Below, piece after piece: positions 1,046 to 36,150 of a DNA stretch of 64,000 nt. The stretch covers positions 620,001 through 684,000 of the forward strand of contig JAEPOK010000002.1 of NCBI GenBank assembly GCA_017642935.1, in the 5' to 3' direction. The translations under genes and the position numbers were made by a program. How positions within the stretch are numbered: the first letter of the stretch is position 1; each line of letters starts with the position of its first letter. The notes beneath the pieces were generated by a model. The model was not told where the DNA came from, ran no database searches, and saw only the letters and a program-made list of their open reading frames with translations. Source of the DNA: Hyphomicrobiales bacterium. Lineage in GTDB: Bacteria; Pseudomonadota; Alphaproteobacteria; Rhizobiales; MH13.

Positions 1046-1774
1046 GCCGTTTTGGACTCCCTTTTGCCGCGTAACAACTCCTCTGGATCTCTGCCCGTCT
1101 ATTTGCAGATCAGCGAAATGCTGATCCGCGATATCGGCTCGGGCCGTCTGCGCGACGGGGAGCGTCTTCCGCCGGAGCGCGAGATGGCCGCCTCCCTGTC
1201 GATTTCGGTGGGCACGCTACGCAAATCCCTCGGTGAGCTGGAAAAGCAGAGCCTTTTAGAGCGAGTGCACGGCTCGGGCAATTATGTGCGCGCCAGCGGC
1301 AATCCGAGCGGTGTCTACGCTTTCTTTCGCCTGGAGCTGATGGAAGGTGGGGGCCTTCCGACGGCCGAAGTGCTCGATATTGAGCGGCTGCCCAAGCCCG
1401 ACGATCTGCCCGCCTTTGGTGTGTCACCGGAGGGTCACCGCATTCGTCGCCTGCGCTCTTTGGGCGGACAACCGGCGGCGGTGGAAGAAATCTGGCTGGA
1501 CGGCAGCTACGTGGAGCGTCTCAACCGCGATGCGATCTCTGAATCGCTCTACCTCTATTACCGCCAAGCGCTGAATCTTTGGATCACCCGCGTCGAAGAT
1601 CGCGTCGGCGTTGGCCGCGTGCCGGACTGGGCACCGGAGGCGTTCGGTCAGCCGGTGGGCGCACCCGCCGGATTGGTGGAGCGCCTCAGCTTCGCCAAGG
1701 ACGGCAAGGTCGCCGAATACTCCCGCAACTGGTTCGACCCCGACAAGGCGCGCTACGTCACCCGCATGAAATGA
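1034..1774 (+). CDS. GntR-family (HutC/UTRA) transcriptional regulator
   Basis: The N-terminal 75 residues form a GntR winged helix: LPVYLQISEMLIRDIGSGRL, then GERLPPEREMAASLSISVGTLRKSL and the wing HGSGNYV. Residues about 90-245 match a UTRA effector domain, including ERLPKPDD and a late WFDPDKARYV segment. UTRA regulators bind a small ligand that releases them from DNA. The true start is uncertain: several in-frame TTG codons (1034, 1040, 1052, 1064) occur and no ATG precedes the helix; 1064 would begin just before the PVYLQI helix. It lies divergent from a flavin monooxygenase and 11 bases before an oxidoreductase in the same direction, so it probably controls one or both. Confidence 0.85.
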   Translation: MILTAVLDSLLPRNNSSGSLPVYLQISEMLIRDIGSGRLRDGERLPPEREMAASLSISVGTLRKSLGELEKQSLLERVHGSGNYVRASGNPSGVYAFFRLELMEGGGLPTAEVLDIERLPKPDDLPAFGVSPEGHRIRRLRSLGGQPAAVEEIWLDGSYVERLNRDAISESLYLYYRQALNLWITRVEDRVGVGRVPDWAPEAFGQPVGAPAGLVERLSFAKDGKVAEYSRNWFDPDKARYVTRMK

Positions 1775-1785
1775 GAACAAGACAC

Positions 1786-2964
1786 ATGGACAACATGAGC
1801 GATCCCACCAGCGAGGCGGCGGCCGAAGCGTTGACCGAGACCAAGCCGTTTCATCCCAATCCCAGCGATGAGCCGCCGACGCGCTACGGCATCGTCGGCA
1901 CGGGCATGATGGGGCAGGAGCATATCCGCAACATTGCGTTTTTGGAAAACGCCGAGGTGGTTGCCATCGCCGAGCCGGACGAGGGGATGCGCAAAGAGGC
2001 GAGTTTTCTCGCGCCCGATGCCACCGCCGTCGATAGCCTGGATGCGCTTCTGCATCTGGATGGGATCGACGCGCTCGTGATCGCCTCGCCCAACCATCTG
2101 CATGTTGGTCAGATGCAGGAGATTGCCGGTCGCCGTGCGCTTCCCTTGCTGGTGGAAAAGCCGGTTTACACCGATCCGTCGCATACGGCCCAATTGGCCG
2201 AGTTCGCTGCGCGCTATCCGGCGCTGGTCTGGGTGGCGATGGAATATCGCTATATGCCGCCCATCGCCTCGTTCTTAAGCCGGGTGCATGAAGAGACCGG
2301 CGGCATCAAGATGCTGTCGATCAAAGAGCATCGCTTTCCGTTTCTGGAAAAAGTCGGCGATTGGAACCGTTTCTCGTGCAACACCGGCGGGACAATGGTC
2401 GAAAAATGCTGCCACTTCTTCGATCTGATGCGCCTTGCGGTGCAGAGCGAGCCGGTGCGCGTGATGGCGACTGCCGGTCAGGCCGTGAACCATCTCGACG
2501 AGACCTATGATGGGCAGGTACCCGACATTTGGGACCATGGCTATGTGATCGTGGATTTTGAGAACGGCGCGCGCGGCATGCTGGAGCTTTGCATGTTCGC
2601 CGATGGCAGCCGCTATCAGGAAGAGATTTGCGCTGTCGGGTCCAAGGGCAAGATCGAGGCCTTTGTGCCGGGTCCGACCCGGTTTTGGCCGGCGCAGCTT
2701 GGCGTGCCGCCGGTGGCCAAAGTGATCGTCTCACCGCGCGACCCGAAAGGGCCGATGGAACTGGACATTCCGGTGGACGAAGACCTGCTGGAAGCCGGCG
2801 ACCACAATGGCGCGACCTTCTATCAGCATCAGCTATTCCTGGAGGCGATCCGCCAGGGCCGTCAGCCAGCGGTATCGCTGGCCGATGGCGCCATGGCGGT
2901 GCAGATGGGCATGGCCGCGCAGGAGTCCGCCCATACCGGCCAGGCCGTTCTTTTGTCGAGCTAG
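1786..2964 (+). CDS. Gfo/Idh/MocA-family NAD(P)-dependent oxidoreductase
   Basis: A classic Rossmann start is seen near residue 35 ([17 protein letters not shown]), followed by [16 protein letters not shown] and the family lysine in [10 protein letters not shown]. The C-terminal alpha/beta sheet domain includes [19 protein letters not shown], whose histidine is in the usual catalytic place. These enzymes oxidise or reduce sugars, inositols and related polyols. I chose ATG 1786 (a second ATG lies at 1795); GAGAAC upstream is a fair ribosome site. Its 3' end overlaps the dabA stop on the opposite strand by four bases. Substrate unknown; probably co-transcribed with the GntR gene. Confidence 0.85.
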
Positions 2965-5357
2965 GCGGCCTGTTCCACGTCTGCTGGGGCGGACGCGGCC
3001 TCCCATTTCAGATCGCCGACATAGCGCATGGCCATCTTGCCTTCCGCGTCGAGGGCAAAGAGGTGCAACCATTTGTTGTCGAACAGATCGCGCACGCCTT
3101 CATGCCGTGAGAGAATGTCGCTCATCGCCTCGGTCGGCGCTTCGATGCAGACCGACAGCCGTAGCGGATCATGGGCGAATTTCTCGCCATCATGCACTGA
3201 CTGCCAAGGCAGGCCGGGGCAAAGGCTGCCGCCATTGCCTTCGACCACGCCGATACCGCCGACCACATTGTGGATGAGCTTGTTGCCGCCGCCAAAAGCT
3301 TCTGGTGCCACGGATGAGCCGTAATATTGCAGCGAGATCCAGCTGGCGACGACCACTGGCGCGGTCATGATGAGCTCCAGGACGCCAAAGCCGTTCGGCT
3401 CGTCTTTCTTCCAGTCGTAGGTATGCAGGAACGCCCGACCTTCCAGCGATTTGCCGGCGGTGCGTGAGCGTGGTGCGGCAATGAAGGCCTTACAACCTGC
3501 CAGCGCCCATTCGGGCCGGGTTTCTGCCCAGTCCTGGCTTCTTGGCGCGATCTGGTTCTCGCCGTCCGCCCGTGGCAGGCGTAGCGCCCGCTCGGCGCGG
3601 GTCACTTTGCCAGCCGCCTCGAACCAGCTCTTGATGGTTTTCAGCTCGGCCGTGTGGCCTGTCACCGACTGATCGTCTTCATAGAGCGTGATCGCATCGG
3701 TGGTGGTGTCGTGCAGGCCCGCAAGGAACAGTGTGTCCTCTGGGATCGTGATACCTTTTTCCACCAAGCCGTTGCGAACGTCTGCGTTGTTGAGCACAGC
3801 TGCCAGCAGCCGTGCATTCACTTCACCGGAGTACCCGCCGCAGGCACCGCAATGCAGCGCGCTTTTGTGCGGGTTGTTGGTGACGTTCGCGCCATGACCG
3901 GCGAGGACCACGATCTTGGCGAAGTCGCCTGTCAGCGACATGGCGCGCAGCACCGTGTTGGCTGCCTCGATCTGATCTTCTAGCGACAGTGATGGGTCGA
4001 GCCTTGGTGCTGGTTCATTTGGTGCATCGTTCTTGGTCATGCCCAGCGCATCGCGGACAAGCTTGCCGACATAGACCGGCCCGGTGGCTTCCACGAACGC
4101 GAAGGACGACACAGCGGCCAGTTTGAACCGGCCCCAGGCGCGGCTTGCCCGCTTGGAAAAGCGTGTTGCCTGATCCTTTTTCTCATCGTCCGCATCACCC
4201 GACACCGAGTGGAGGCCGGCGTTCAGAAGCACCGGCAGCCGATGCTCGGGAACATCGGAGGCAAAGCCCTTATGCGAGGTGATAATGCCGAAGAATCCGG
4301 CAAAACCAAGCGTCTCGATGGCCGGGTCAACTGCTTCCAGCGCCCGCCGGAAAACTTCTGAGCGCACATCAATGCAGAAGGCGGCTTGTAGCGTTTTGCG
4401 CTTGTCGGATGCCTGCGGGGCAGGTGCGGCGAACATGTCGGCCAAACCACGCTGGGCGGCCCGTTCGGCGGCTTCCTGCAACACCTGATCTAGGACCAAA
4501 TCGGCGGTCGGCTCGACGGGTTCGGCATACTTGGCGGCCGCTTCGCGCCAGCTTTTTTCAATCGTGCCCTTGGCGTGCAGATAAAGGGCTTCGGCCCATA
4601 CCAGGCGGATGGCAAGGAACTCGATGCCGGTTGTATCGGTTTCGCCGGCAAGTTCGGCCTGCCACAGCTTGTAGCGGGCGACCTGGCTCCACCCGCCCAA
4701 GGAGGTCAGCTGGCCATGGAAGAAGGTCGGCCAGGCCGCCTCTGGCAGATCAAGGGTTTTGACGGCCCGCAGAATGGCGTCCGGCGCGTTGTCAGGTGCG
4801 TCCACGACATGCTGCGCAAAGCCTTTCAGCCCCGCAATCTCAGGCGTCAAATCGTGGGTGGCGGTTTCGCGCCAAGCGGCATAGGCGTTGCGGCCCTTTG
4901 GTGCGGCCCAAAGCGCTTGACCTTGGTCGAAATAGCCAGCAGCCCAGACCCCAATCCGATAGGAAATAATGCTTGGCCAGTCGATGCCGGTGACGTTGGC
5001 GGCAAGGCTTGCCACGGTCGGCAGGCGCTGGGCCTCGGCTTCGGTGATCGTTTGCGGCTTGGCGACAGCGGCGCGCACTGCTTCTGCATTGGCAGGCCGC
5101 AGCGCTTGCGGCGCGCTGGCGATGGCGGCGGTGATGTCGGCGTCGGTGATTTCGCCCTTGGCGATTTTCTCGCCGTACCATTCGCGCGGCATGGTCATGA
5201 CGACCCCGGACACGCGGGCCAGCAACGCGCCGGTTTCAGCGAGCGACATGTGAGACTGGCCGAGATAGGGGTTGACGGCAACCGAAGAGGCCAGCGGCCA
5301 GACCGGCGGAACGGCCCGAACGGCTTGGTCGGCAGCTTGGAGGTGAGACTGGGTCAT
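2961..5357 (-). CDS. dabA: DabA, inorganic carbon transporter catalytic subunit (DUF2309/UPF0753)
   Basis: A 798-residue protein of the DUF2309 family. DabA is the soluble beta-carbonic-anhydrase-like partner of DabB, thought to hydrate CO2 vectorially and trap bicarbonate in the cytoplasm using ion-motive force. The four zinc/active-site residues known in the Halothiobacillus protein are visible with the right spacing: Cys328 and Asp330 in FCIDVRSE, His488 in [11 protein letters not shown] and Cys503 in ALHCGACGG (15 residues after His488, as in the family). The start ATG at 5357 is followed by [20 protein letters not shown], typical of the family. It lies 18 bases after dabB in the same direction, so the pair is an operon. 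Confidence 0.93.
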
Positions 5358-5375
5358 TGGATGCGCTCCCGAACC

Positions 5376-6959
5376 TTAGGATGAAGATTTGATGGCAGTG
5401 TTTTTGATCGAATGGCCTTTGATCAGACGATCAAAGACGGCGTTGGCGTAAAGCCCGTTGGCGAGGTGAACCCGCAGGCCCGCCGCGGCCGGGTGGTAGG
5501 CCCAGAGCGGGAAGAGTGCCTGCGCGACCGCGACTAGGCCGAAGCTGACGATGGAGAGCACGATGAGCGCCCATTCCAGCGGTCCAGGCGCCAGGGTGGC
5601 GGGTAGAGTGCCAACCATGATCCAGTCCGCGCCGGTCTGCAGGGCGAAATAGGCAAGCGCGGTGGCAAGCGCATATTGTGAGGTGCGCAAGGTGAGCACC
5701 CAAGGCGCTTTATCGGCAAGACCTTGAGCCAGCAAATACGCCACACCGAAGATCAGGATCGCGCCAAGCGCGAGGGCCTGCGGCGACTTGCTGTCGAAGC
5801 CGAAGGAGAACGCAAAGAGCGTTGCGACCACGGCGTAGATAGCGATGGCGATCAAAAACGCTTTGCCGACGGCGCCGGGGCTTGGCACGGCAACAGGGCC
5901 AGGGCGGCGGATGGACGCCACCAGATCAACAGTGCCGCCGGAGGCGAGAAACGCGTGTGCCTTGTAAAGCGAGTGGGCGACGATGTGGAGCAGGGCCAGC
6001 GGGAAGAGCGCAAGGCCGCATTGCAGGATCATGAAGCCCATCTGCGCCACGGTGGACCAGGCGAGCGAGGTTTTCACTGCGGATTGGGTGAGCATGACCA
6101 GGCCGCCGAACAGGGCTGTGAAGCCGCCGATCATCACCAGCACGGCGAGAACGCCAGGGGCAAGCAGCATAACGTCTGCAAAGCGGATAAGGAGGAAACC
6201 GCCGGCATTGATGACACCAGCATGCAGCAGGGCGGAGACCGGCGTTGGGGTTTCCATCACCTCGGTCAGCCAGCCATGGGTGGGGAACTGGGCTGATTTC
6301 AAGAGCGCGGCGAGCGCGAGAAGGCCTGCAACCCAGAGGGTGCTGGCCGTCGCTTGGCCATCGGATGCTTGCGCGAGAATGGCGGCGATGTCGCCCGTGC
6401 CGTAGTTCACCATGAGGATGAGCGCGGCGGCGAGCAGTGCGACATCACCGGCGCGCGAGACGATCCATTTTTTCTTGGCGGCGCGCTGGGCTTCCACACG
6501 CTCTGGATAGAAGAGAAGAAGCTGATGCAGGAAGAGGCTGGTGCCGATCCAGGCGAGCACAAGCTGCACCAGCGTGCCGGATTGGACGAGCAGCAGCACC
6601 GAGGCGAGGGTGAGCAGCATCCAGCCGGTGAACGGGCCTTGCTTGGCTTCACCGTCGAGATAGGTGCCGGAGAACCGCAGCACCACCCAGCCGACGAATG
6701 ACACGAGCATCATCATGATGACCGACAGCGCATCGACGCGCGTGCTCAAACCAAAGCTGGAAATGCCCAGCGTTGGCGACGTCGCCGCGCCATTCACCAG
6801 CAACAGCGCGCCCACCAAAGCAGAGACGGCAAAGGCGGCAAGCGCTGCAATCTCAGCCAGTTTCACCGTTGCGGTGGGGCGAAACGACGGCCCGCGAAAA
6901 GCAAAGATGGCAGCGGCGATCAGCGCCAAAGGCGCGAGGAAGGCAAGAAGTGCGTACAC
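5376..6959 (-). CDS. dabB: DabB, proton-conducting membrane subunit (NuoL/MrpA-like)
   Basis: A 527-residue very hydrophobic protein with about 13-14 membrane segments, related to complex I subunit NuoL. The core proton-antiporter region is clear: KSAQFPTHGWLTEVMETPTPVSALLHAGVINAGGFLLIR, followed by TSLAWSTVAQMGFM and LLHIVAHSLYKAHAFL. DabB anchors DabA to the membrane and supplies the cation flux that drives CO2 hydration. There are no other Nuo or Mrp genes nearby, so this is a DAB pair and not part of complex I or an Mrp antiporter. It is the first gene of the operon, divergent from a LysR regulator 107 bases away. Confidence 0.92.
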   Translation of the reverse strand: MYALLAFLAPLALIAAAIFAFRGPSFRPTATVKLAEIAALAAFAVSALVGALLLVNGAATSPTLGISSFGLSTRVDALSVIMMMLVSFVGWVVLRFSGTYLDGEAKQGPFTGWMLLTLASVLLLVQSGTLVQLVLAWIGTSLFLHQLLLFYPERVEAQRAAKKKWIVSRAGDVALLAAALILMVNYGTGDIAAILAQASDGQATASTLWVAGLLALAALLKSAQFPTHGWLTEVMETPTPVSALLHAGVINAGGFLLIRFADVMLLAPGVLAVLVMIGGFTALFGGLVMLTQSAVKTSLAWSTVAQMGFMILQCGLALFPLALLHIVAHSLYKAHAFLASGGTVDLVASIRRPGPVAVPSPGAVGKAFLIAIAIYAVVATLFAFSFGFDSKSPQALALGAILIFGVAYLLAQGLADKAPWVLTLRTSQYALATALAYFALQTGADWIMVGTLPATLAPGPLEWALIVLSIVSFGLVAVAQALFPLWAYHPAAAGLRVHLANGLYANAVFDRLIKGHSIKNTAIKSSS

Positions 6960-7046
6960 GGAGAGTCTCCAGCCGGTGTTCGATGCGTAGTCGGTGGGGA
7001 TTAACGCGTAGGATTCTCCAATAAAAATACATTGTTTAGCGAAAAA

Positions 7047-7065
7047 CGTTCACTTAAAACGAACG
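7047..7065. promoter_or_regulatory. Candidate LysR box between dabB and its regulator
   Basis: The pair CGTTC and GAACG, separated by nine bases, forms a symmetrical site ending one base before the LysR start codon. It fits the T-N11-A form of LysR-type sites and probably serves for autoregulation and dabBA control. The assignment rests on symmetry and position. Confidence 0.45.
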
Positions 7066-7066
7066 A

Positions 7067-7966
7067 ATGGCTCCACTCAATTACAATCATCTGCGCTATT
7101 TTCGTGCCGTTGCCCACACCGGTAACCTCACACGCACCGCCGAACAGCTGAATATCTCGCAGTCGGCGCTGTCGGTTCAGATCAAACGGCTGGAAGAACA
7201 GCTCGGGCATCAGCTGTTCGAGCGGAGGGGTCGTGCGTTGCATCTGACTGAGGCTGGGCGCCTCACGCTGGACCATGCCGATACGATTTTTGCGACTGGC
7301 GATGAGCTGCTTTCGACCTTGCGTCAGGAGGGCCAGACCCGGCGTGCGGTGCGCGTTGGATCGCTGGCGACGCTGTCGCGCAACTTTCAGCTTAGTTTTT
7401 TGAAACCGTTGCTTGGACGCGCTGACGTCGATCTCATTCTGCGCTCCGGTGGGGCGGAAGACCTTTTACGGGGTCTTGAGACGTTGAACCTTGACGTGGT
7501 GTTGATGAATCAACCACCGCCACGCGATGCGCTCTCCAGTTTCGTGGCGCACCGGCTGGACGAACAGATTGTCAGTCTGGTCGGCACTCGTGAGCGGATT
7601 TCAGGTGAGACGATCGAAGCGCTGCTTGCGGCCCATCCGGTTGTTCTGCCAACGCCGGAAAGCAGCGTGCGCCTGGGATTTGACGCTTGGATGGAGCGGC
7701 TTGATCTGCGCCCGCAAATCGCGGCCGAGGTCGATGATATGGCGATGATGCGTCTGCTCGCCCGCGAGGGCGTCGGACTGGCCGTGCTGCCGCCCATCGT
7801 GGTGCAGGATGAGCTGGCTTCAGGCCTGCTCGTCGAAGCCGCGCCTTTGCCGGATTTGGCCGAAACCTTCTACGCCGTCACCATGGAGCGCACTTTCCCC
7901 AATCCGCTGGTGCGCGAGCTGTTGACGACCAAGGAGAATGATCCGCCCGTTGACCAAAAATCTTGA
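7067..7966 (+). CDS. LysR-family transcriptional regulator of the dab operon
   Basis: The first 60 residues are a standard LysR helix-turn-helix: NYNHLRYFRAVAHTGNLTRTAEQLNISQSALSVQIKRLEEQLG. The rest is the periplasmic-binding-protein-like effector domain, with DLILRSGGAEDLLRGLETLNLDVVLM and LLAREGVGLAVLPPIVV. It is divergent from dabB-dabA. LysR regulators next to DAB genes are known, and CbbR-like regulators of carbon fixation belong to the same family, so control by CO2 or a metabolite is likely (inference). There is no clear ribosome site before ATG 7067; the bases there form a possible LysR box, so translation may be weak or leaderless. Confidence 0.88.
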   Translation: MAPLNYNHLRYFRAVAHTGNLTRTAEQLNISQSALSVQIKRLEEQLGHQLFERRGRALHLTEAGRLTLDHADTIFATGDELLSTLRQEGQTRRAVRVGSLATLSRNFQLSFLKPLLGRADVDLILRSGGAEDLLRGLETLNLDVVLMNQPPPRDALSSFVAHRLDEQIVSLVGTRERISGETIEALLAAHPVVLPTPESSVRLGFDAWMERLDLRPQIAAEVDDMAMMRLLAREGVGLAVLPPIVVQDELASGLLVEAAPLPDLAETFYAVTMERTFPNPLVRELLTTKENDPPVDQKS

Positions 7967-8087
7967 TGGTCGACTTCGATCATCACGTCGGGATGCCGAC
8001 GAAATTCCGGCATCGCTATCAACCGTACAATTTCACTTGCAGTTGTCTCAGAGGTGGTGCCACGGCGCATGGAATAATGGCGTGCAA

Positions 8088-8272
8088 TTGCTGAAACCGG
8101 GGCTTTTGCGTTGGATACGAAGCCAGAGACCGGTGCACATTAGCTGGCAATCCGCTGGGATTCATCGGCAGCTTACTTGGAAAGCGGCGATCGCATACCC
8201 GGCGATCTGGGGTCGTATCCGGATGAAGAACTGCAGGATGTGGCTTGGGCGTTCACTGGCCAGGACTGAGCG
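8088..8272 (+). pseudogene. Decayed cupin gene (3' part), paralogue of the cupin at 9710
   Basis: Reading the plus strand in shifting frames recovers the second half of a cupin. In one frame are GVQLLKPG then CVGYEARD; after a frameshift near 8140 comes AAYLESGDRIPGDLGSYPDEELQ ending in AWAFTGQD and a stop at 8270-8272. The intact cupin at 9710 has EQVLTPGMCAGFRAGG, VIYLEIGDRTPGDEGSYPEDDLK and AWVFTRKDG at the same places. At least two frameshifts and an in-frame stop break it. The 5' half could not be recognised. The remaining bases of this gap (7967-8087 and 8273-8457) show no gene; an AT-rich stretch at 8325-8400 may hold the promoter of the next gene. Confidence 0.7.
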
Positions 8273-8457
8273 TTTTGATCGTTCCCAACTGTGCTGTCAG
8301 GTGTGGCGATTCGGTCGCACAATCTCAAAATTCGTAAACAAACCGTAAAGGAAGTTCGCTTTTTTCCCGTCTGGAATGAAGCACTATGTTGACTCGGTAA
8401 TTGGAGAAACGCTTCCTTTCCATCGAAATTGCCAATTGCTGTTTGGGGGAAAGCTTC

Positions 8458-9234
8458 ATGGATAGGATAGCAACTCTTAGATTGGTCGCTGGGCTCGGTC
8501 TAGCTGTAGGAATCGCCTTTTATGCTGCCGGGCCGGCCAATGCGCAAATGTCGGCCAATGATCCAACCATTCCGTCCGGTTACAATTATGGTAGCGCGGC
8601 GATCGGTGCCGAGATCCGCTTCTTCAGCTCTCAAGTAAACGTGACGTCTGACTTCAACGGCAACGTTTACAGTTCGCAGGTTGACGTTGACAGCATTGAT
8701 CCAGGCGTCGACGCCTACATCACTATCCTCGCTTCACCGGAAACTGGAACCTCTGTCTTTGCCGGCGCTTGGGCAGCGCCTACAGCGTCTATTGACGTTG
8801 ATACGCAGAATTTTCGAAGCGCTGCTGATTTCATTCGGACGCAGTTTCAGTTCAATCCCAACATTGTGTCGGGCTTTCTTGGACTTGAACAGGTGCTGTG
8901 GGCGCTGGACTCAACCCGTGTAGCTGGACGCGCCTACGCTGGTGGTCGTTTGTCGACCTGGGACTTTACTGCGACTGGCGCCGGCGCCGGCGCTATCAAT
9001 TTCTCCGACTCGGGAACGGCCGTCGTCCCCGCCGGTGGTTTTGATCTCAGCATCGAGTATGACAAGCCCCACGACAGTCCTTTGTATGGATTCACTGTTG
9101 GCGCCTATGCCGGCCTGCAAGTGCAGGGTGGGTATGACATCAACAACACCTACAACACCATTGTTGATCACAGGATTGATGTTGAAACAGGAGTTACCGC
9201 GTATGGCGGTCTCCGCATTCGACGGACGTTCTAG
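8458..9234 (+). CDS. Secreted, probably outer-membrane beta-barrel protein of unknown function
   Basis: 258 residues. The N-terminus is a signal peptide (positive start, hydrophobic run LVAGLGLAVGIAFYAA, cleavage after GPANAQ, about residue 30). The mature part is polar, rich in Ser, Thr, Asp and Tyr, with alternating strand patterns and a C-terminal LRIRRTF ending in phenylalanine, the usual signature of an outer-membrane barrel. No known motif was seen. ATG 8458 is chosen because a GGGGGA ribosome site sits ten bases upstream and the signal peptide starts there; an upstream TTG at 8401 would add a non-signal extension. It sits between a cupin pseudogene and a tRNA fossil, so it could be part of an old insertion. 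Confidence 0.65.
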   Translation: MDRIATLRLVAGLGLAVGIAFYAAGPANAQMSANDPTIPSGYNYGSAAIGAEIRFFSSQVNVTSDFNGNVYSSQVDVDSIDPGVDAYITILASPETGTSVFAGAWAAPTASIDVDTQNFRSAADFIRTQFQFNPNIVSGFLGLEQVLWALDSTRVAGRAYAGGRLSTWDFTATGAGAGAINFSDSGTAVVPAGGFDLSIEYDKPHDSPLYGFTVGAYAGLQVQGGYDINNTYNTIVDHRIDVETGVTAYGGLRIRRTF

Positions 9235-9311
9235 GGATCAGCAATTCCGCGGCGTCGACCAAACTGGTCGGCGCGGCCTTGATCAGTTTTTCATCGACCG
9301 TGGCTCCAATT

Positions 9312-9360
9312 CGGAGAAACGCGGATTCGAACCCTAGTTTCGCAAAGCGCACATTGGTTT
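9312..9360 (-). pseudogene. tRNA-Ser 3'-half fossil, probable old attachment-site remnant
   Basis: About 39 of 47 positions match the intact tRNA-Ser(CGA) at 52045-52133 in the same orientation. The fragment covers the acceptor 3' strand, T arm (GATTCGAACCCT), long variable arm (CGCAAAGCGCACA) and the start of the anticodon stem (GGTTT). Mismatches break the T stem, so it cannot be a working tRNA. The rest of the gap 9235-9709 shows no convincing gene. A tRNA piece from the 3' end to the anticodon region is just what integrating elements duplicate. Confidence 0.65.
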
Positions 9361-9668
9361 CCCAATAGTTCCGTTTTGTTGCTCCAGTATCTGACCCTAG
9401 GCCGCCCCGGAGGCTGGTGGCTGGTGGGTGCTGGTCAGTCAAGCCGCGGTCGCGCCTGTTCGGGTGGTTGATGCTGGCGTTGATGGCGGTGATCTTGGAC
9501 CGAGACGTGCCGAAGATCGTTGGGCGCATGGAATCCCAAGCGCTGAATCGACCGCTCGACATGCTCCGGTCAGACCTCCGCCTGGCCTATTGCTGAGCCG
9601 TCGGCAGCCGCTGTGTTGACCTCTCAGACCTATGGGTAAGGGTCTTTTCCGCTCAGTTCTTCTATTAT

Positions 9669-9709: not shown

Positions 9710-10189
9710 ATGACACGCTCACCATCTGCCTTTGCGGTGATGGCCAACGAGGTCGCGCCACGCAGCAAGCCGTCCAACTATCCAGAGCCCTTTGCGGCGC
9801 GCGTTGCTGGGCGCGTCAAACGGCAGCTGGGTGACGTGTTCGGGCTGTCGAACTTTGGTGTGAACTTGACCGAACTTGCGCCTGGGGCCGAGTCCGCGTT
9901 GTTGCACCGGCACAGTAAGCAGGATGAGATGATCTACATTCTGCAAGGCTATCCAACACTGCGCACAGAGACGGGCGAACAGGTTCTGACACCGGGGATG
10001 TGCGCCGGGTTTCGCGCAGGCGGCGCGGCGCACCAGTTGATCAATCGCACCGGTGCGCCGGTGATCTATCTGGAGATTGGCGATCGCACACCGGGCGATG
10101 AAGGCTCCTATCCGGAGGACGATCTGAAAGCGGTAATGATCGATGGCGCTTGGGTGTTCACCCGCAAGGACGGCACGCGCTATGACTGA
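9710..10189 (+). CDS. Cupin-domain protein
   Basis: 159 residues with the two cupin motifs: LTELAPGAESALLHRHSKQDEMIYILQG (metal-binding histidines in HRH) and GMCAGFRAGGAAHQLINRTGAPVIYLEIGDR. The ending GSYPEDDLKAVMIDGAWVFTRKDG is found in a subgroup of small cupins of unknown role that often accompany oxidoreductases. ATG 9710 has a strong GGAGG site upstream. It overlaps the following PNPOx-fold gene by eight bases, so the two are translated together. A decayed paralogue lies 1.4 kb upstream. Substrate unknown. Confidence 0.82.
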   Translation: MTRSPSAFAVMANEVAPRSKPSNYPEPFAARVAGRVKRQLGDVFGLSNFGVNLTELAPGAESALLHRHSKQDEMIYILQGYPTLRTETGEQVLTPGMCAGFRAGGAAHQLINRTGAPVIYLEIGDRTPGDEGSYPEDDLKAVMIDGAWVFTRKDGTRYD

Positions 10190-11429: not shown

Positions 11430-11548
11430 TCTTAAAGCATACAGGAATCCGGGCGATTTTCGAGACAAATCAAGGCGGTTGGTTAAGCGTTTGATCCACC
11501 CCAGCAGTCGGCGTCGGCCGCCCTGGATGTTAGGCTGCTTACCGAATC

Positions 11549-12301
11549 GTGCCCCTCACCCACCGAGTTGAGCCTTTGTTGCAGTGCATCAGTTGGAACA
11601 TTCACCGTTGCCGCGGCAATGACGGCGTCGTTGACCCGGCGCGGACGGTGTCAGTCTTGCGTGACGAGGTCTGGCGTCCCGATTGCGACACTTTGATCTT
11701 CCAGGAAGCGGACGAAGAAGTGCCGCCCCATCATGGGCTTCTCGACCTGCAGCAGATCGAACACGTGACGGGACTTCGCCACGTCCATGGTGCACCCGAT
11801 TACCGATGGGGCGAGGGCAGCCATGGGTTTCTTGGCGTCATCGTGTTTCTCCACCCGTCCTTTCAAGTTGACGATATCGCGCTACTTGATCTGCCGGGGC
11901 ATTGTCATCGCGGCGCGGTAATCGTTGATGCGCAGCGCGATGGGCAGGCTTTCCGGCTCATCGGGACGCATCTCTCGCTCTGGCAAGGTCTGCGGATCGC
12001 GCAGATGCGCACCATCGGGCAGCATCTCTTCCGGCGACAACAGCGTCCGACGGCGCTGATCGGCGACCTCAATGAGTGGCGGCCCTGGGGCGGGCTCGCT
12101 CTGTCGCCAAAGGTGCTTGGCGCCAATTTCGGTGGGCCGGTGCCTGCGACGTTTCCCATCCGCCGACCCCTGTTGCCGCTGGACAGGGTACTTGTGAGTG
12201 AGCCTGGAAAGGTGGTGTCGACTGAGGTGTTGGACGGGCCGGGCATCCGCATGGCCTCCGACCATCGGCCTCTGGCCGCGCGGATCACATGGGGTGGTTA
12301 G
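11549..12301 (+). CDS. Endonuclease/exonuclease/phosphatase (EEP) family protein
   Basis: 250 residues with the EEP order of motifs: CISWNIHRCRGNDG (Asn), LIFQEADEE (metal-binding Glu), IGTHLSLW (His), LIGDLNEW (catalytic Asp/Asn pair) and the final ASDHRPLAARI (Asp-His). The active site is complete, so it should be a metal-dependent phosphodiesterase acting on nucleic acid or a phospholipid-type substrate. The start is GTG 11549; no better ATG exists. Its stop overlaps the stop of the convergent opgG gene by four bases (TTAG). The subgroup is that of stand-alone EEP proteins often found near envelope genes. Confidence 0.82.
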   Translation: MPLTHRVEPLLQCISWNIHRCRGNDGVVDPARTVSVLRDEVWRPDCDTLIFQEADEEVPPHHGLLDLQQIEHVTGLRHVHGAPDYRWGEGSHGFLGVIVFLHPSFQVDDIALLDLPGHCHRGAVIVDAQRDGQAFRLIGTHLSLWQGLRIAQMRTIGQHLFRRQQRPTALIGDLNEWRPWGGLALSPKVLGANFGGPVPATFPIRRPLLPLDRVLVSEPGKVVSTEVLDGPGIRMASDHRPLAARITWGG

Positions 12302-13806
12302 ACGCCGCCGTCGCGCGCGCGGGTCCACCGATGGAGCCAGGTCGGACTGAGGGGTGTGCCGTCCGGCGCGCGCAGGCTGAGGCGGACCTCTGTGGCGTCC
12401 AACGCGCCGGGATCCAGCAAAAAGGTCACGCGTGTTCCCAGATCGTCGGATAGGGGGAACGCACTCGCGCCCGACAGTGTCGCGCCAGCGCTTGCCGACA
12501 AGACCGGCGCGGCGCCTGGAACATGGGTGCCAACATCAACGACAAAGCGCCGAACGCCCGGCTGGTCGTGCTCGCGGCCGCTGCGGCTTTGCAGGATCGG
12601 CGCGAGGTTCCCGGTCACAGGCGGTGTGCGTGTCCAGGTCAGGCTGTAGGCGAAGCGGTGTTCCTCGCCCGGAGACAGCGTTTCTTCCGGACGCCAAAAG
12701 GCGACGATGTTGTCCATAAACTCATCGCCGGTTGGAATCTCCACCAGCATAACCGCGCCGCGTCCCCAATGACCGGTGGGTCGCACGATGGCCGAGGGCC
12801 GGTCGTGGTATCGCGCTTCGGTGTCTTCAAAATCTTCAAACTCGCGCCTGGTCTGGAACAGGCCGAAGCTCGCAGGCGCTTCATCGACGAAGGCCGAGGT
12901 TTCCAGGCGCGTGGGGTTGGCGATGGGCCGCCAGAGCTTTTCGCCAGCGCCATTCTCGATGAACAGAACATCGCTGTCATGGACGCGCGGGCGGAAATCA
13001 TCGGACACCGACGCGCGCATCGGACCTTTCAGATACATCGAGGTCAGCGGTGCCACGCCAATGTCGGGGATCGGCACGCGCGGCAGCAGTGTCGTGATGA
13101 CGTCCATCTGCGTGTCGTCGCCGGGCCGTACGGTCATGTCGATATGAGCGGCCAGCGAGGGGCTGTCGATGAGACCCTCGATCCGCACCGATCCATCGTC
13201 GGCTGGGTGTAGGCGCAAATGGGTGAAGCGTGGAAACTCTTCCGGACCTGCACCGCCTGTGCCGATGGCAACGGCGCGGGCGGACAGCCCATAGACCATC
13301 GCTTGGCCGATGGCGCGAAAATAGCTCGCGCCTTGGATTACCAGGACCTCGTCCATCCGCTCAGAATCGTTCAGCGGGTAGCGCAGGCGCATGCCGGAGA
13401 ACCCGGCGCCGGGGCTGTTTTCAGGAATAGAATCGAAGTAGCGCGGCTCGAAGCTGAACAGGCTGGGGCGAAAATCGATCTCGCTGAGACCATCGGCCGT
13501 CACGCGATCGATCTTGACCGGATCGGGAAAGTAGAGCCCCGGAGGCAGCAGATCGACAGCAAAATCGGACCCGTGTGGCAGCATGCCGGCAAGACCGGGA
13601 AGCGGCCGGATGCCGCGATAGGCGTTGTAATCAAGATCAGCAAAGGGTGGCGAGAGTTGCAATGTGCTCGGCGCGTAAGGTCGCCGGCTCATCGCCCTGG
13701 CGTCATCCAAAAGCGAGGTGGATGCCAGCGGATTGGCCGAGACGCGCACGGCGGGACTTGCCAACAGGGCCGCACCGGCCGCCAAGACATCGCGCCGTCG
13801 CATCAT
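12298..13806 (-). CDS. opgG: OpgG/OpgD-type periplasmic glucan biosynthesis protein
   Basis: About 502 residues starting at the ATG-ATG at 13806, with a GAGGAGA ribosome site upstream. It opens with a twin-arginine signal (RRRDVLAAGAALLASPAVRVSA), as in OpgD. The mature part has the family blocks FADLDYNAYRGIRP, FSFEPRYFDSIPENSPGAGFSGMRLRYPLN, FLVIQGASYFRAIG-like VLVIQGASYFRAIGQ and GLSARAVAIGT. These proteins act in the periplasm to branch or modify beta-1,2/1,6 osmoregulated glucans made by OpgH. The gene directly follows opgH (13-base gap), forming the usual opgHG pair, here in H-G order. Confidence 0.88.
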   Translation of the reverse strand: MMRRRDVLAAGAALLASPAVRVSANPLASTSLLDDARAMSRRPYAPSTLQLSPPFADLDYNAYRGIRPLPGLAGMLPHGSDFAVDLLPPGLYFPDPVKIDRVTADGLSEIDFRPSLFSFEPRYFDSIPENSPGAGFSGMRLRYPLNDSERMDEVLVIQGASYFRAIGQAMVYGLSARAVAIGTGGAGPEEFPRFTHLRLHPADDGSVRIEGLIDSPSLAAHIDMTVRPGDDTQMDVITTLLPRVPIPDIGVAPLTSMYLKGPMRASVSDDFRPRVHDSDVLFIENGAGEKLWRPIANPTRLETSAFVDEAPASFGLFQTRREFEDFEDTEARYHDRPSAIVRPTGHWGRGAVMLVEIPTGDEFMDNIVAFWRPEETLSPGEEHRFAYSLTWTRTPPVTGNLAPILQSRSGREHDQPGVRRFVVDVGTHVPGAAPVLSASAGATLSGASAFPLSDDLGTRVTFLLDPGALDATEVRLSLRAPDGTPLSPTWLHRWTRARDGGV

Positions 13807-13819
13807 GGAAGCGGTCTCC

Positions 13820-15397
13820 TCACGCTCCGGCGTCGATGGCGCGCACGATGAGCGGCGCTCCAATGAGCGGCAGGATCATGGGCGCGAGCCACAAGGTTGC
13901 GCCGAGGCCTGATGTCGCCGCCAGGGCGAGCAGAGCGACGCCAACGGCCATCTCGCCTGCTCCTGTCGGCAAGGATAAGCGGTGGTTGCGACCAGACTTC
14001 CAGCCGCAATCAATGCCGATGAGAACCGAGGCAACCGAAGCTGATTGACGCACCATGACCAGCGGCGCCAGGATCGTGGAGAGCCCCAATTCGGCCGCCG
14101 ATGCTCGCAAAATGATGCGCTTGCGCCAGCGGGTTTGCGCCCGCGACAGCGCTTCGGCCATGGCACAGAATTTGGGTAGCAGGAGCGTCGCGGCCACCAA
14201 TCCCAGCGGAATCGCATGGGTGACGGAGACGGCACCGAGGCCAATCAGAACGACCAGGATCAGCCAAATGGGCGCAGCGATGTAGCTGAAGATGCCTGAG
14301 AGCAGGTTGAAGCGGCTCACGGGGTGCAGGCCAGGTTCGGCCAGCAGGCGCAAATGCTGCAGATTGCCCTGGCACCAACGCCGGTCGCGGCGGTGAAACG
14401 CCTCCAATGTCTGCGGCGCATCTTCCGCGCTGCCGGCAAGATCAGGGTCGAGCACCACGTCCCAACCGGCGCGCCGTATCCAGGCCGCTTCAACGAAATC
14501 ATGGCTGAGCAGGGCACCACCCAAGGGCGCTGATCCGGACAGCTCGGGAAGCTTGGCTGCGGCTCGGAATGCGGCGATCCGCATGATTGCGTTGTGACCC
14601 CAATAATTGCCCGTGGTGCCAGACCAGGCGGCCAGCCCTTTGCCGAAATTGCGCGACAAGAGGCGCGAGGTGTTGCGTTGATGGCGGCCAAAGAGGCTGC
14701 GCCCAGGTACCAGCGCGATGCCTGCTTGAAGGAGGCCAATTTTCGGCCGGCTTTCCAGCTGCCAGATCATGTGGCGCATGCGTGCTGCGGTCATGCGGCT
14801 GTCAGCATCAAGCACCATCATGGCGTCAAAGGCATTGCCGTGCCCGGCAAGCCAATCGGCGATGTTCCCAGGCTTGCGGCCTGTGTTTTCGGCCCGTCGA
14901 CGGTAGGTGATGCGCCCGCTGTCGATGAGCGGGCGTAGCGCTCCTTCTTCGGCACTGATCTTGGCGGTGCCCGATGTGTCGGACAGCACGGTGATGCGCG
15001 TTGAGGCTTTAGGGCCGCGTCTTTCCAGATCGGAGGCGAGCTGCGTCAGGTATTCGGCCAAGGGGCGGGGATCTTCACCGCAAAGCGTGACCAAAATCGC
15101 GGTCCGGCCGCTGGGCAGCCAGGTCGTTGGCGGGACTTGAGGTTTTCTATCCGGCTGCGCCAGGCCGACCAGGGCCGTTGCTGCGCCGCCTGCGATCCAC
15201 AACGCGTTGATGAACACCAGGGGCAAGGCCGCCCACGCAAACGGCGTCCAGCTTTCAACCGCATGGGCAAACGCGACCACAATCGCCAGCGAGAGCAGCG
15301 TGGTCACCCCAAAAAAAGCCGAGCGCGGGCCCAGATGGGCGAGCCTATCGCCCGAGGCGGCGTCGGCTAAAGGACGGGCGCTTTCAACAACGGACAA
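13820..15397 (-). CDS. opgH: OpgH-type glucan glucosyltransferase
   Basis: 525 residues, family 2 processive glucosyltransferase. Two membrane segments near the N-terminus (FFGVTTLLSLAIVVAFA, PFAWAALPLVFINALWIAGG) precede the catalytic domain with ILVTLCGEDPRPLAEYL, MMVLDADSRM (D-x-D motif), AWIRRAGWDVVLDPDLAGS and the Q-x-x-R-W-like RRDRRWCQGNLQHL. More membrane segments follow. The enzyme uses UDP-glucose to polymerise and export the glucan backbone. It is shorter than the E. coli protein (about 850 residues), lacking the long N-terminal cytoplasmic region, as is common in alphaproteobacteria. Confidence 0.88.
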   Translation of the reverse strand: MSVVESARPLADAASGDRLAHLGPRSAFFGVTTLLSLAIVVAFAHAVESWTPFAWAALPLVFINALWIAGGAATALVGLAQPDRKPQVPPTTWLPSGRTAILVTLCGEDPRPLAEYLTQLASDLERRGPKASTRITVLSDTSGTAKISAEEGALRPLIDSGRITYRRRAENTGRKPGNIADWLAGHGNAFDAMMVLDADSRMTAARMRHMIWQLESRPKIGLLQAGIALVPGRSLFGRHQRNTSRLLSRNFGKGLAAWSGTTGNYWGHNAIMRIAAFRAAAKLPELSGSAPLGGALLSHDFVEAAWIRRAGWDVVLDPDLAGSAEDAPQTLEAFHRRDRRWCQGNLQHLRLLAEPGLHPVSRFNLLSGIFSYIAAPIWLILVVLIGLGAVSVTHAIPLGLVAATLLLPKFCAMAEALSRAQTRWRKRIILRASAAELGLSTILAPLVMVRQSASVASVLIGIDCGWKSGRNHRLSLPTGAGEMAVGVALLALAATSGLGATLWLAPMILPLIGAPLIVRAIDAGA

Positions 15398-15472
15398 GGA
15401 CGGGGGGACTCCAAGATGCAGCGGTTGAATTGACTACTTGGGCAAGTATCGCCGATCGGGCAATCGGCAAGG

Positions 15473-16036
15473 TTAGGTTTGGTCGGCGCGTCCGGCGACG
15501 GGCGGCCACATGCGCGAGAAGATGCCGTCTCGGCGCACCAGCCCGTGAAAGGCCGCTGCTCCGATATGCATCGCTACCAGACCTGCAATGGCAAAAGCGC
15601 CAAAATAATGGACGCTTTTGGCGAATGCGGCCAATTCGTCCGAACGCGGCACAAAAGCTGGGACACCGGCAGCGTCGAGCGCCTCGATCGGAAATCCCCC
15701 GGCGCGGACCCGCACGTAACCGGCGATGGGCATAATGATCAAAAGCGCGTAGAGCGCGACATGGGTGAGTTTGGCGATGGACTCCTGCCAGGCCGGCATT
15801 GGCGCAGGCTCTAGAACCGGTGGATTGCGCCAGCGATAGAAAAGCCGAGCAATTACCAGAAGCATCACCAAAACGCCGATATTCTTGTGAAAGATGAAAA
15901 GCGTGTTCTGCGTCGAGCGAGCCAAACCCTCCTGAATCATCAGGAATCCGGCAGCGATCATCAGGAGAATGAGAATGGCCATCACCCAATGCAACAGGCG
16001 CGCTGGCGTTCGGTATCCAAAGGACGGCGTGGTCAT
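15473..16036 (-). CDS. Cytochrome b561-family protein
   Basis: 187 residues from ATG 16036, which has a CAGGAGA site upstream (the longer frame from 16069 lacks one). Four membrane helices carry the likely haem-binding histidines: TPARLLHWVMAILILLMI, TLFIFHKNIGVLVMLLVIARLFYRW, LTHVALYALLIIMPIAGYVRV and VHYFGAFAIAGLVAMHIGAAAFHG. Such proteins pass electrons between quinol and periplasmic partners. It stands upstream of opgHG in the same direction with a 75-base gap, and divergent from the lipid operon. Confidence 0.87.
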   Translation of the reverse strand: MTTPSFGYRTPARLLHWVMAILILLMIAAGFLMIQEGLARSTQNTLFIFHKNIGVLVMLLVIARLFYRWRNPPVLEPAPMPAWQESIAKLTHVALYALLIIMPIAGYVRVRAGGFPIEALDAAGVPAFVPRSDELAAFAKSVHYFGAFAIAGLVAMHIGAAAFHGLVRRDGIFSRMWPPVAGRADQT

Positions 16037-16134
16037 GCTCCAAGTCTCCTGTCGTCTGCTGGAGGACAAAATGGCGCTGATTCAACCCCAACGAGCGGGC
16101 TTGACTTCGCGCAAGCGCTATTAATCTCTAGGAC

Positions 16135-16896
16135 ATGCGTTTCGTGGAACCAAGTCAAAGTCCGCATTTGCAGCAGGCGTTGCCCAACCCTCGCTTGCGC
16201 CCCCCGCTTTCCGGGTTCGTACTGACGGCGATTGCCGGGGCGGTCTGCGTTGCGGTGTTGAGCGTCGGCCTGTTCGGCTTAGAGCGCGAGGGCATCCTTG
16301 GCCTGGCGGTCGGCCTCGGCCTTTTCCTGGTTGCGTCCATCACGTTCGGCATTGCCTTGATGCGCACCTACCCGCATGCGGTTCTCGGTCTCTGCAATGT
16401 CGTTACGCTTGTGCGGCTGGTGATCGTCGCCACGCTCGCCGGCGCTTTGATCTCAACAACCAGTCCCGCCTGGGCAATCTTTGTCATCGCCACGTTTGCC
16501 CTAACGCTGGACGGCGTGGACGGCTGGCTTGCTCGCCGACAAGACTTGGCCTCGAGCTTCGGTGCGCGGTTCGACATGGAGGTGGATGCCGCATTCGCCT
16601 TGGTGTTGGCGCTGCACGCTGCGTTTGGCGAGATCGCTGGTTTCTGGGTCGTGCTTCTTGGATTGCCGCACTATCTGTTCGTGGCCGCCAACAGAGTGTT
16701 TCCCTGGCTTGGAGGGGCGCTGCCGGAGCGCTTCAGCCGCAAAACCGTCTGCGTCTTGCAGATCGGCACGTTGGTCGCGCTTCAGGCCCCCGTGCTCGAT
16801 GCGAGCATTGCCGCTCCACTGATCGTTATTGCCAGTTTGGCGCTGGTCTGGTCGTTTGCTCTTGATATCCTCTGGCTTTGGCGGTCGCGCCCTTGA
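16135..16896 (+). CDS. CDP-alcohol phosphatidyltransferase
   Basis: 253 residues with the full catalytic signature around residue 125-148: D-G-x2-A-R-x8-G-x3-D-x3-D, seen as DGWLARRQDLASSFGARFDMEVD. Six to eight hydrophobic segments surround it. These enzymes swap CMP of a CDP-linked lipid for an alcohol to make phospholipids such as PG, PS, PI or PC. Which one is not clear from sequence. It overlaps the next gene (TTGA), and the three genes form an operon for a membrane lipid. It sits well away from housekeeping pgsA-type genes, pointing to a special lipid. Confidence 0.87.
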   Translation: MRFVEPSQSPHLQQALPNPRLRPPLSGFVLTAIAGAVCVAVLSVGLFGLEREGILGLAVGLGLFLVASITFGIALMRTYPHAVLGLCNVVTLVRLVIVATLAGALISTTSPAWAIFVIATFALTLDGVDGWLARRQDLASSFGARFDMEVDAAFALVLALHAAFGEIAGFWVVLLGLPHYLFVAANRVFPWLGGALPERFSRKTVCVLQIGTLVALQAPVLDASIAAPLIVIASLALVWSFALDILWLWRSRP

Positions 16897-18533
16897 ACCC
16901 TTCTGCCTTGACACCCGCGCTGCGCCTCGTCCTCGCGGCCCTAGTTTTTCATCTCGTGCTGATCCAACCCAATCATCCGGCGGCCATGAGCTGGGGCGCC
17001 TTGTTGGTCCTGCCGCTGGAGCTTCCTGTTGTCTTGTTGGCCCTGCTGGCGCTTGGCGATGGTCGTGCGGGCGCCTGGGTGCGAGGCTTGCTGGTGGCGG
17101 TTTTGACGCTGCTGATGGTGCTGAAAACCGCAGACTACATTATGTTCACCGCGCTCAACCGAGGGTTCAACCCGGTCGCTGATTTGCCCTTGGTCGTCTC
17201 GTTTGCACAGTTGATCGCCGGAACCTTCGGCATGTTGGCGGCCGTGCTCGCGGTGGTTGGTGCTGTGCTTTTGACTGCGCTGGTGGCGGCGTTTTTGTGG
17301 TGGGCGTCGGGCGTTTGGGCAAGTGTGACCATTAAACCCGCGGCTGTGCGGCTGGCGTCTGTTGGGGCGGTTCTGTTCGCCGGTGTTGCCGCAGCGGAAA
17401 TCGGCCACGCCATGGGCCGGTGGAACTTGCCCGCCGAGCCGCCGGGTGCCGCGTTCACCGCTCGTGTCGGCGTGGAACGCATCGGCATGACGCGCGAGAC
17501 GCTCGCTGATCTGCGGGCCTTTCGTTCGGCAGCCCTTGCCGATCCTTACCGGGACGAGGATGGCCTGCTTGATCTCATCGACCGCGACGTCGTGGTTCTG
17601 TTCGTGGAAAGCTATGGGCGGACGAGTTTCGACACGCCGTTATACGCCGATCTGCATCGCCAGACGCTGGAAGCTGCAGAGGCCGAGCTAGGTGATTTGG
17701 GGTTTGCCATGGCCTCAAGCTTTCTGTCCTCGCCAACACGTGGCGGTCAGAGCTGGCTTGCCCACGCCACCTTTGCCAACGGGCTTTGGATTGACGACCA
17801 GGCAAGCTATGGCGCGGCGCTCGCGAGCGGCCGGCAAACGCTTTTTCACATTGCCGCGCGCTCGGGGTTTCGCACTGCTGCGGTGATGCCGCAGATCACC
17901 CTTGAATGGCCTGAATCCCAATTTATGGGCTTCGACACTGTGCTTGCTGCAGCCGATCTTGGTTACCAGGGCGAGCCGTTCAATTGGGTCACGATGCCGG
18001 ATCAGTTCACCTTGGCCGCTCTCAACCGGCACCTGCGCGAGGAACGCGCGGACGATCAAAACCTGTTCGTTCAGGTCGCGCTGGGATCCTCGCACGCGCC
18101 TTGGGTGCCTGTGCCGACCCTTGTCGATTGGGAGACCATTGGCGACGGTCAGATTTTCAACGCGATGGCTGCTTCTGGCGATGCGCCCGATATTGTCTGG
18201 CGTGATCGCGATCGCGTTCGTGCGCAATACCGGCTGGCCGTTGATTACGCCTTGCAGACCGTCTTCGCCTATGCTGCCCGCCAGGGCGATGAACCACCCC
18301 TTCTGGTCGTGATTGGCGATCATCAGGCAGCAAGTTTCGTTGCGCTGGACGAGCGCCCCGATGTGCCCATTCACGTTATCGGCGTTCCCGCGCTGGTTGA
18401 TCGTTTGGCCGATCACGGCTTTGTCCAGGGCCTTATTCCACCCGATGATACGCCAGTGCGTTCGATGGCAGGCATGCGTGGCCTGATCTTGGACGCGTTC
18501 TCCTCCAATCCGATCGAGGCGGCGGCGCGATGA
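16893..18533 (+). CDS. Membrane-anchored LtaS-like alkaline-phosphatase-superfamily protein
   Basis: About 546 residues, using TTG 16893, which overlaps the upstream stop by four bases (an in-frame TTG at 16878 is also possible). Five or so N-terminal membrane helices are followed by a large extracytoplasmic domain from about residue 225. That domain starts with DVVVLFVESYGRTSFDTP (metal-binding Glu), has SSPTRGGQSWLAHATFANGL and a late LLVVIGDHQAASFVA (Asp-His metal site). This layout is that of LtaS/phosphoethanolamine- or phosphoglycerol-transferases. It probably moves a phospho-head group from a lipid to a glycolipid or glucan at the outer face. The substrate is unknown. Confidence 0.78.
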   Translation: MNPSALTPALRLVLAALVFHLVLIQPNHPAAMSWGALLVLPLELPVVLLALLALGDGRAGAWVRGLLVAVLTLLMVLKTADYIMFTALNRGFNPVADLPLVVSFAQLIAGTFGMLAAVLAVVGAVLLTALVAAFLWWASGVWASVTIKPAAVRLASVGAVLFAGVAAAEIGHAMGRWNLPAEPPGAAFTARVGVERIGMTRETLADLRAFRSAALADPYRDEDGLLDLIDRDVVVLFVESYGRTSFDTPLYADLHRQTLEAAEAELGDLGFAMASSFLSSPTRGGQSWLAHATFANGLWIDDQASYGAALASGRQTLFHIAARSGFRTAAVMPQITLEWPESQFMGFDTVLAAADLGYQGEPFNWVTMPDQFTLAALNRHLREERADDQNLFVQVALGSSHAPWVPVPTLVDWETIGDGQIFNAMAASGDAPDIVWRDRDRVRAQYRLAVDYALQTVFAYAARQGDEPPLLVVIGDHQAASFVALDERPDVPIHVIGVPALVDRLADHGFVQGLIPPDDTPVRSMAGMRGLILDAFSSNPIEAAAR

Positions 18534-19471
18534 CCACGGGTGTGCTCTCCCTCTCGCCAGGTCTGATGCGCTTTGGCCAATTGGCGGCAACCATCGGGCT
18601 GCTCGCGCTGCTTTGGCGGATTGCCGATGGACCGGAAACAGCACGCATTCTTTCCACCGCGGAGCCGATCTGGCTGGTGGCGGCTATCGGTGCGCTGACC
18701 GTGCAAACAGTGCTGTCGGCGGCGCGATGGCGGCTGACGGCGGGCCAGTTGGGCATCAAGCTGCCGGCCATGCATGCACTGCACGAATACTACCTTGCGC
18801 AAATGGTGAACCAGGCCGTGCCGGGCGGGGTAGTTGGCGATGCCGGACGCGCGGTGCGCTCGCGCGGCCAAGCCGGACTGCTCGCCGCCGGTCAGGCCGT
18901 CATTTTTGAACGTCTCGCCGGTCAGATCGCGATGTTCCTGGCGATGGCTTCAGCCTTTTTGGCAACGTTGCTTATACCCGGCGGGTTTGACTGGCCGGCT
19001 TGGCTGGTGCCACCCGTGCTCCTGATGATCGCGGTTGGATTCGCTCTGCCCGCCGCACTTTTCGCCGGTGCGAACTTGCCTGGGCGGATCGGCGCCAAAG
19101 TGATGGGGCTATGGAAGGACATGGGCCATGCGCTCGCCGCGCCAAATGTTCTGCCGATGCAAATTGTGCTGAGCGCCGGCACCACGCTCTGCAATCTGGC
19201 CGCCTTTGCGTTCTGCGCGCGGGCGGTCGGCGTAGTTCTGCCACCTGTGGTCATCTTGGCGCTGGTTCCGCTGATCCTTTTCACCATGCTCATCCCGCTG
19301 ACGATCAGCGGTTGGGGCGTGCGCGAAGGCGCGGCAGCAGCGCTTTTTCCCCTGGCGGGCGCCACGGCAAGCGAAGGCTTTGCCGCCAGCGTTGCCTTCG
19401 GCTTGGTGTTGCTGGTGGCCGTTCTGCCCGGGCTTCTGACGCTTTGGCTTCGCTCACAGGAGGACGGGTAG
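18530..19471 (+). CDS. Lysylphosphatidylglycerol-synthase/flippase-like membrane protein (UPF0104)
   Basis: 313 residues, eight or so membrane segments, with the family blocks AARWRLTAGQLG, YYLAQMVNQAVPGGVVGDAGRAVRSR and LLPLTISGWGVREG-like MLIPLTISGWGVREGAAAALF. This is the AglD/MprF flippase-type domain without the aminoacyl-transfer domain. Such proteins are thought to move lipids across the bilayer. It overlaps the upstream phosphatase-superfamily gene by ATGA, so all three genes are coupled: make a phospholipid, flip it, use its head group outside (inference). Confidence 0.82.
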   Translation: MTTGVLSLSPGLMRFGQLAATIGLLALLWRIADGPETARILSTAEPIWLVAAIGALTVQTVLSAARWRLTAGQLGIKLPAMHALHEYYLAQMVNQAVPGGVVGDAGRAVRSRGQAGLLAAGQAVIFERLAGQIAMFLAMASAFLATLLIPGGFDWPAWLVPPVLLMIAVGFALPAALFAGANLPGRIGAKVMGLWKDMGHALAAPNVLPMQIVLSAGTTLCNLAAFAFCARAVGVVLPPVVILALVPLILFTMLIPLTISGWGVREGAAAALFPLAGATASEGFAASVAFGLVLLVAVLPGLLTLWLRSQEDG

Positions 19472-19579
19472 CCCAATGACGTCTGCCGTCGATCACTGTT
19501 TCTTTATCGCAAGGTACGGGCTTTCGCGTGTTGCCATTGCAACCTTCCCCTCTAGCCTTTGGTCCAAATGGAGGATCCC

Positions 19580-24054: not shown

Positions 24055-24059
24055 ATGCG

Positions 24060-33529: not shown

Positions 33530-33552
33530 CGTTTCACCTGTCCATTCTTTGC

Positions 33553-33587: not shown

Positions 33588-33617
33588 AGTTTTCAACATC
33601 TTCAATTTTACCCCAAA

Positions 33618-33640: not shown

Positions 33641-33652
33641 ACTCCTCGACCT

Positions 33653-34033: not shown

Positions 34034-34037
34034 GCCT

Positions 34038-36136: not shown

Positions 36137-36150
36137 TTGCACTTGCTGGC

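Follow-up and report, generated by a model that had tools for sequence, protein, structure and literature searches.

A decayed tRNA-Ser(CGA) fossil in a Hyphomicrobiales genome that does not bound the mobile element at the intact gene

A bacterial tRNA pseudogene is a decayed extra copy of a tRNA gene that is called by no tRNA finder. Displaced tRNA fragments of the Islander type (PMC4383910) are the other described kind of tRNA remnant to which the locus studied here comes close, and according to that source, in 2014 no serine recombinase was known to act at tRNA genes. In other work, a Paracoccus phage serine recombinase is predicted to act at a tRNA-Met gene (PMC6536676) and six Mesorhizobium elements carry serine recombinases (PMC8627217), while the authors of a serine integrase–DNA structure inferred from it, by modelling, that attP and attB half-sites differ by a 5-bp shift (PMC3783163). 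The window analyzed here, a stretch of 64,000 nucleotides from the genome of a Hyphomicrobiales bacterium, comprises both a tRNA-Ser fossil and, about 43 kb to its right, an intact tRNA-Ser gene with a serine-recombinase element at its 3' end.

The intact tRNA-Ser(CGA) gene (52045–52133, reverse strand) is the sole tRNA in the window according to ARAGORN and Rfam, and is either the source of the fossil or a near relative of that source. The well-kept part of the fossil (9312–9360, reverse strand) aligns to it without gaps and in the same orientation, with 41 of 49 bases identical from the anticodon loop to the 3' strand of the acceptor; the CCA end is lost. A first-pass annotation had reported a match of about 39 of 47 bases in this orientation and had derived the fossil from a tRNA-Ser by decay. 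Both statements stand, and the source gene can now be specified as tRNA-Ser(CGA). In the whole genome, the intact gene is the only other strong match of the fossil (E = 2.8e-8, with the next best match at E = 2.13), and among ten class-II-sized tRNA genes it reaches a score of 34 compared to at most 15 for the other nine. Neither ARAGORN nor Rfam calls the fossil a tRNA, and a low-threshold Rfam scan returned two matches far below the cut-offs, which were taken as chance. A second tRNA-like stretch (9482–9549; score 17) was rejected, as it scores at the level of the maxima in simulated sequences.

Beyond the anticodon loop, a probable 5' part follows in a strongly decayed state (9361–9396, reverse strand), in which 20 of 37 alignment columns match, next to 11 transitions, five transversions and one gap. 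The significance of this 5' similarity depends on the scoring scheme: for an extension anchored on the well-kept part and set against a background of around 20,000 random genomic segments, P is 0.0006 with transition-tolerant scoring, 0.008 with a milder scheme and 0.39 with plain +1/−1/−3 scoring. When the fossil and the tRNA are aligned end to end, the score has P = 0.016 and the number of matches P = 0.002, and a comparison with shuffles of the segment gives P = 0.009. Because the weaker, transition-rich similarity extends to 9396, the fossil is probably near full length, and the alignments point to a near-full-length tRNA copy as likelier than a half copy. The initial description of the fossil as a 3' half therefore holds for 9312–9360, but it probably stops too early, with the dependence on scoring noted above. 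The two parts have nonetheless decayed to an unequal extent (41/49 versus 20/37; Fisher P = 0.004), which counts against a simple uniform decay of one gene copy.

This inequality is also the starting point of the main rival to a pseudogene. In that explanation, only the 3' half was ever present. A tyrosine-integrase element, since lost, would have recombined at the anticodon loop and entered a secondary place between lysR and cupin that is not a tRNA gene; the fossil would be the scar of its attachment site, and the extra DNA around the fossil a remnant of the element. Indeed, the well-kept block begins at the anticodon loop, which is where identity falls, and the corresponding site in G002, another genome of the genus, is not a tRNA gene. 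On the other hand, the transition-rich similarity runs on into the 5' part, a tyrosine integrase was found by Pfam in none of the 40 window proteins scanned, and the fossil has no match in the phage and plasmid collections. We consider a scar of this kind possible, though on the unlikely side.

The origin of the tRNA sequence itself can be traced by its variable loop. A TTT variable loop is present in both the fossil and the intact gene, whereas all three other genus genomes have GTGA at this place. A search for the pattern of variable loop plus T-arm, allowing up to two mismatches, in 397 genomes of the order found it in only two of them: twice in the present genome and once, with one mismatch, in G305. 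The shared loop and the rarity of the pattern indicate that the source of the fossil was the tRNA-Ser(CGA) of this lineage or that of a near relative. An identical tRNA-Ser(CGA) (89 of 89 bases), with an rplU-like stretch upstream, is found on an IMG/VR contig (L196:304–2438). There, another serine recombinase lies 256 bases 3' of the tRNA; it is only 24% identical to the one in the window and thus represents a second kind of element near the same tRNA.

The fossil is located between a LysR-type regulator gene on its left (7067–7966, forward strand; Pfam) and an intact cupin gene on its right (9710–10189, forward strand; Pfam), the latter being 83% identical in G002. The two genes are 1743 bp apart in the window and 89 bp apart in G002, where they lie on one contig in the same orientation and without a fossil. 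The extra DNA that is absent from G002 and present, among the genomes compared, in this one alone (7967–9626, with an approximate right edge; around 1.65 kb) contains a decayed C-terminal cupin fragment with one stop that adjoins lysR (8135–8266, forward strand), an orphan frame of 277 amino acids (8401–9234, forward strand) and the fossil. From about 9628, upstream of the intact cupin gene, the sequence is again similar to the lysR–cupin gap of G002 (score 16.5; P = 0.00075, with 4000 random segments as the background). The stretch directly after lysR is also weakly similar to that gap (P = 0.0155), so that the decayed cupin may be the original neighbor of lysR and the intact cupin a second or newer copy. 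Given this possible second copy, the order of lysR and cupin argues well, but not decisively, for a small insert around the fossil. The decayed fragment shares 24 of 48 amino acids with the intact cupin of the window and 26 of 48 with that of G002; no cupin of this kind was found in G001 and G003, two further genomes of the genus. As for the orphan frame, it occurs in its own genome only among 199 genomes of the order and has no match in Pfam, PHROGs or plasmids. A comparison of the fossil's flanks with those of tRNA-Ser(CGA) in four genus genomes gave nothing beyond shuffled controls. The highest score, 2.5 s.d. over the mean, was obtained with the left flank in the window itself; it lies under the shuffled maximum and at positions that do not correspond. 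It thus appears that no neighboring DNA came along with the tRNA copy, which counts against a copied tRNA gene as the origin of the fossil. Further to the left (1579–7966), dabA, an NDH-like gene and lysR are inverted with respect to the neighboring gene (1579–2964) when this genome is compared with G001 and G003, and in G002 lysR adjoins the counterpart of the 1579–2964 gene with no dabA between.

The direct observations are a similarity in the orientation of the tRNA, a variable loop common to both copies and a G002 locus that lacks the extra DNA. They are best explained, in a judgment that is about evenly balanced, by a decaying and probably near-full-length copy of tRNA-Ser(CGA) in a lineage-specific insert, possibly from a lost element. 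The copy and the extra DNA would have reached the lysR–cupin gap together, perhaps carried by a small element with tRNA-Ser genes as its targets. The copy would then have decayed to a state in which no recognizable tRNA is made any longer, and a single renewal, either by a tRNA-Ser-targeting element or by gene conversion, may account for the fresher state of its 3' part. A separate lost element, which the first-pass annotation had named as its second option, is a possible origin of the fossil. Both as a pseudogene and as the scar of a lost element, the fossil is an ordinary feature.

The first option of that annotation was an older and larger insertion between 9.3 and 52 kb. In its general form, the fossil would be the far end of an older island at tRNA-Ser(CGA), comprising either 9.3–33.4 kb or 9.3–52 kb. 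The fossil does have the orientation, and the position on the 3' side of the tRNA, that a displaced fragment should have, and the DNA 3' of tRNA-Ser(CGA) is different in all four genus genomes. However, the mdoG block (11534–24806) is genus-conserved chromosome, with a collinear counterpart in G003 and partial ones in G001 and G002; mdoG itself is present in four out of four genus genomes, and the next stretch of mobile DNA has its own end at 33366. Moreover, lysR and cupin adjoin in G002, and around 110 kb beside lysR in G003 contain no tRNA-Ser. Since the intervening DNA consists of ordinary chromosome in one part and, in another, of a mobile element bounded by ends of its own, the fossil most probably does not mark the edge of a 43-kb insertion. 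As far as gene order is visible in these assemblies, it does not support an insertion of 9.3–52 kb, and an older island strikes us as very unlikely. The proposed synteny check, i.e., whether 1–9.3 kb and 52–64 kb are adjacent in related genomes, did not reveal such adjacency: the mdoG, lysR and rplU–tRNA blocks are on different contigs in G001, G002 and G003, although these assemblies are in pieces, so that neighborhoods across contig ends are not visible and the contig breaks prevent a full exclusion. The genus is rearranged in the region of lysR, mdoG and the tRNA. What is very probably a false 43-kb island boundary is hereby removed, and an element of 18.7 kb with its own ends takes its place.

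This mobilizable element (33366–52051) sits at the 3' end of the tRNA-Ser gene and carries the 7-base sequence TGGCGGA at both ends. Its left end, at 33366, was placed by homology to an Ahrensia element, and the same TGGCGGA forms the 3' end of the tRNA (52045–52051). An earlier idea, that the variable loop had arrived with the resident element, was dropped once the element end was placed at this TGGCGGA. The gene content includes a NikA-like protein, a relaxase, a coupling protein, a resolvase, the Gabija genes gajA and gajB (46054–49696; PADLOC E = 3e-202 and 9e-182) and a large serine recombinase (50541–52178, forward strand; Pfam Resolvase, Recombinase and Zn_ribbon_recom), of which the frame runs antisense through the tRNA. 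Directly upstream of the recombinase, with frames overlapping by four bases, a protein of 198 amino acids is encoded (49948–50544). It has no Pfam, PHROGs or PADLOC match; most related loci encode a relative of it ahead of the recombinase gene, and it is possibly a partner of the recombinase.

Relatives of the recombinase are found at 11 loci (L079–L089), ten of them in nine genomes and L088 in one more record. Nine of these loci have a match that extends into a tRNA-Ser gene from its 3' end, with CGA, GGA, TGA or GCT as the anticodon. The other two are possibly tandem or secondary insertions: at L084 (7889–8841) the tRNA-Ser lies 0.86 kb beyond the recombinase, and at L082 (11504–11530) only a 26-base end of a tRNA-Ser is kept. 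Together with the window, these loci provide 12 tRNA-type ends (L084 measured at the distant tRNA, L082 at the remnant). All 12 have a spacing of 10 to TTCGAACC (window: 52045–52069), and 11 of them have TGGCGGA as the core, with TGGCGGG in L086. Left ends were found in four elements only, i.e., those of the window, Ahrensia, Cohaesibacter and Rhodobacterales 56_14_T64; at some other loci the contig or the sequence examined stops first. Each of the four reads TGGCGGA-N15-TCCGAACC (window: 33366–33395). The attP-type half-site is therefore five bases longer than the tRNA half-site (15 versus 10 from the core to the T-loop-like motif). In a search for displaced tRNA pieces, the far ends of related elements yielded only three weak hits of 13–17 bases (E = 0.06–0.25), none of which is at the expected place and in the expected orientation.

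One more conceivable origin for the fossil is as a former second landing site of this family. It would then be a spare tRNA-Ser copy in which the 3' part, as the half read by the recombinase, outlasted the 5' part because it was retained or renewed for longer. If true, spare tRNA-Ser copies would take up insertions at no cost and so protect the working tRNA; we regard this as a long shot. Still less probable, to the point of being nearly dismissible, is an origin of the fossil as the left attachment site of the resident element, moved from its place. That element does occupy this tRNA, but its left end is at 33366, is common to three other elements and has a spacing of 15. In the fossil, the core has lost TGG, and the remaining CGGA is followed by TTCGAACC at a distance of 10 bases, instead of TGGCGGA and 15 bases to TCCGAACC. 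With this spacing and the loss of TGG, the fossil is not a left end of the serine-recombinase element family and hence no end of the element at 33.4–52 kb; nor, most probably, does it bound an island of 43 kb. Chance resemblance, in favor of which nothing was found, can be neglected in view of the E-value given above and of a local score of 34 compared to a maximum of 18 in 40 first-order simulated 64-kb sequences.

As a by-product of the analysis, the resident element is of more interest than the fossil. A 54-codon open frame starts at its left-end core (33365–33529) and would, once the predicted circle is closed, continue the reading frame of the recombinase (from its codon 502 on) across the junction. 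This tail (49–54 codons) is recognizable in three other elements (L155:19135, L158:13441 and L162:13247), in which it is 48–55% identical to that of the window. On sequence grounds, the recombinase gene appears to continue across attP. If so, the recombinase of an integrated element would lose its own C-terminal tail and end in codons read from the tRNA instead, with both the circle and the swap being predictions at this stage. A parallel is offered by the integration-dependent immunity of some phages, in which integration trims a repressor. Among the papers searched, the titles and the first parts of abstracts contained no description of such a C-terminal swap, and we make no claim that it is unpublished.

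In relation to the known systems, the fossil resembles a bacterial tRNA pseudogene in being a decayed extra copy without a tRNA call, and differs from it in that decay has gone further on its 5' side than on its 3' side. It is also similar to the displaced tRNA fragments of Islander (PMC4383910), given its orientation, its location 3' of the intact gene and the shared replicon. Unlike in such islands, however, the DNA in between consists of a genus-conserved block, collinear in G003 from 11.5 to 24.8 kb and hence not foreign to relatives, and of a separately bounded element, and none of the 40 window proteins scanned with Pfam is a tyrosine integrase. Unlike such fragments, too, the similarity probably spans nearly the whole tRNA. 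Automatic island calling uses tRNA fragments, and here this signature alone would mislead. The resident recombinase carries the same three Pfam domains as the large serine recombinases (PMC3783163), and the additional 5 bp in the attP-type half-site of its element fit the 5-bp domain shift in the model of that paper. It sits at the 3' ends of tRNA-Ser genes, unlike what the 2014 statement on serine recombinases (PMC4383910) would lead one to expect, and this tRNA-Ser-associated family of serine recombinases merits a study of its own.
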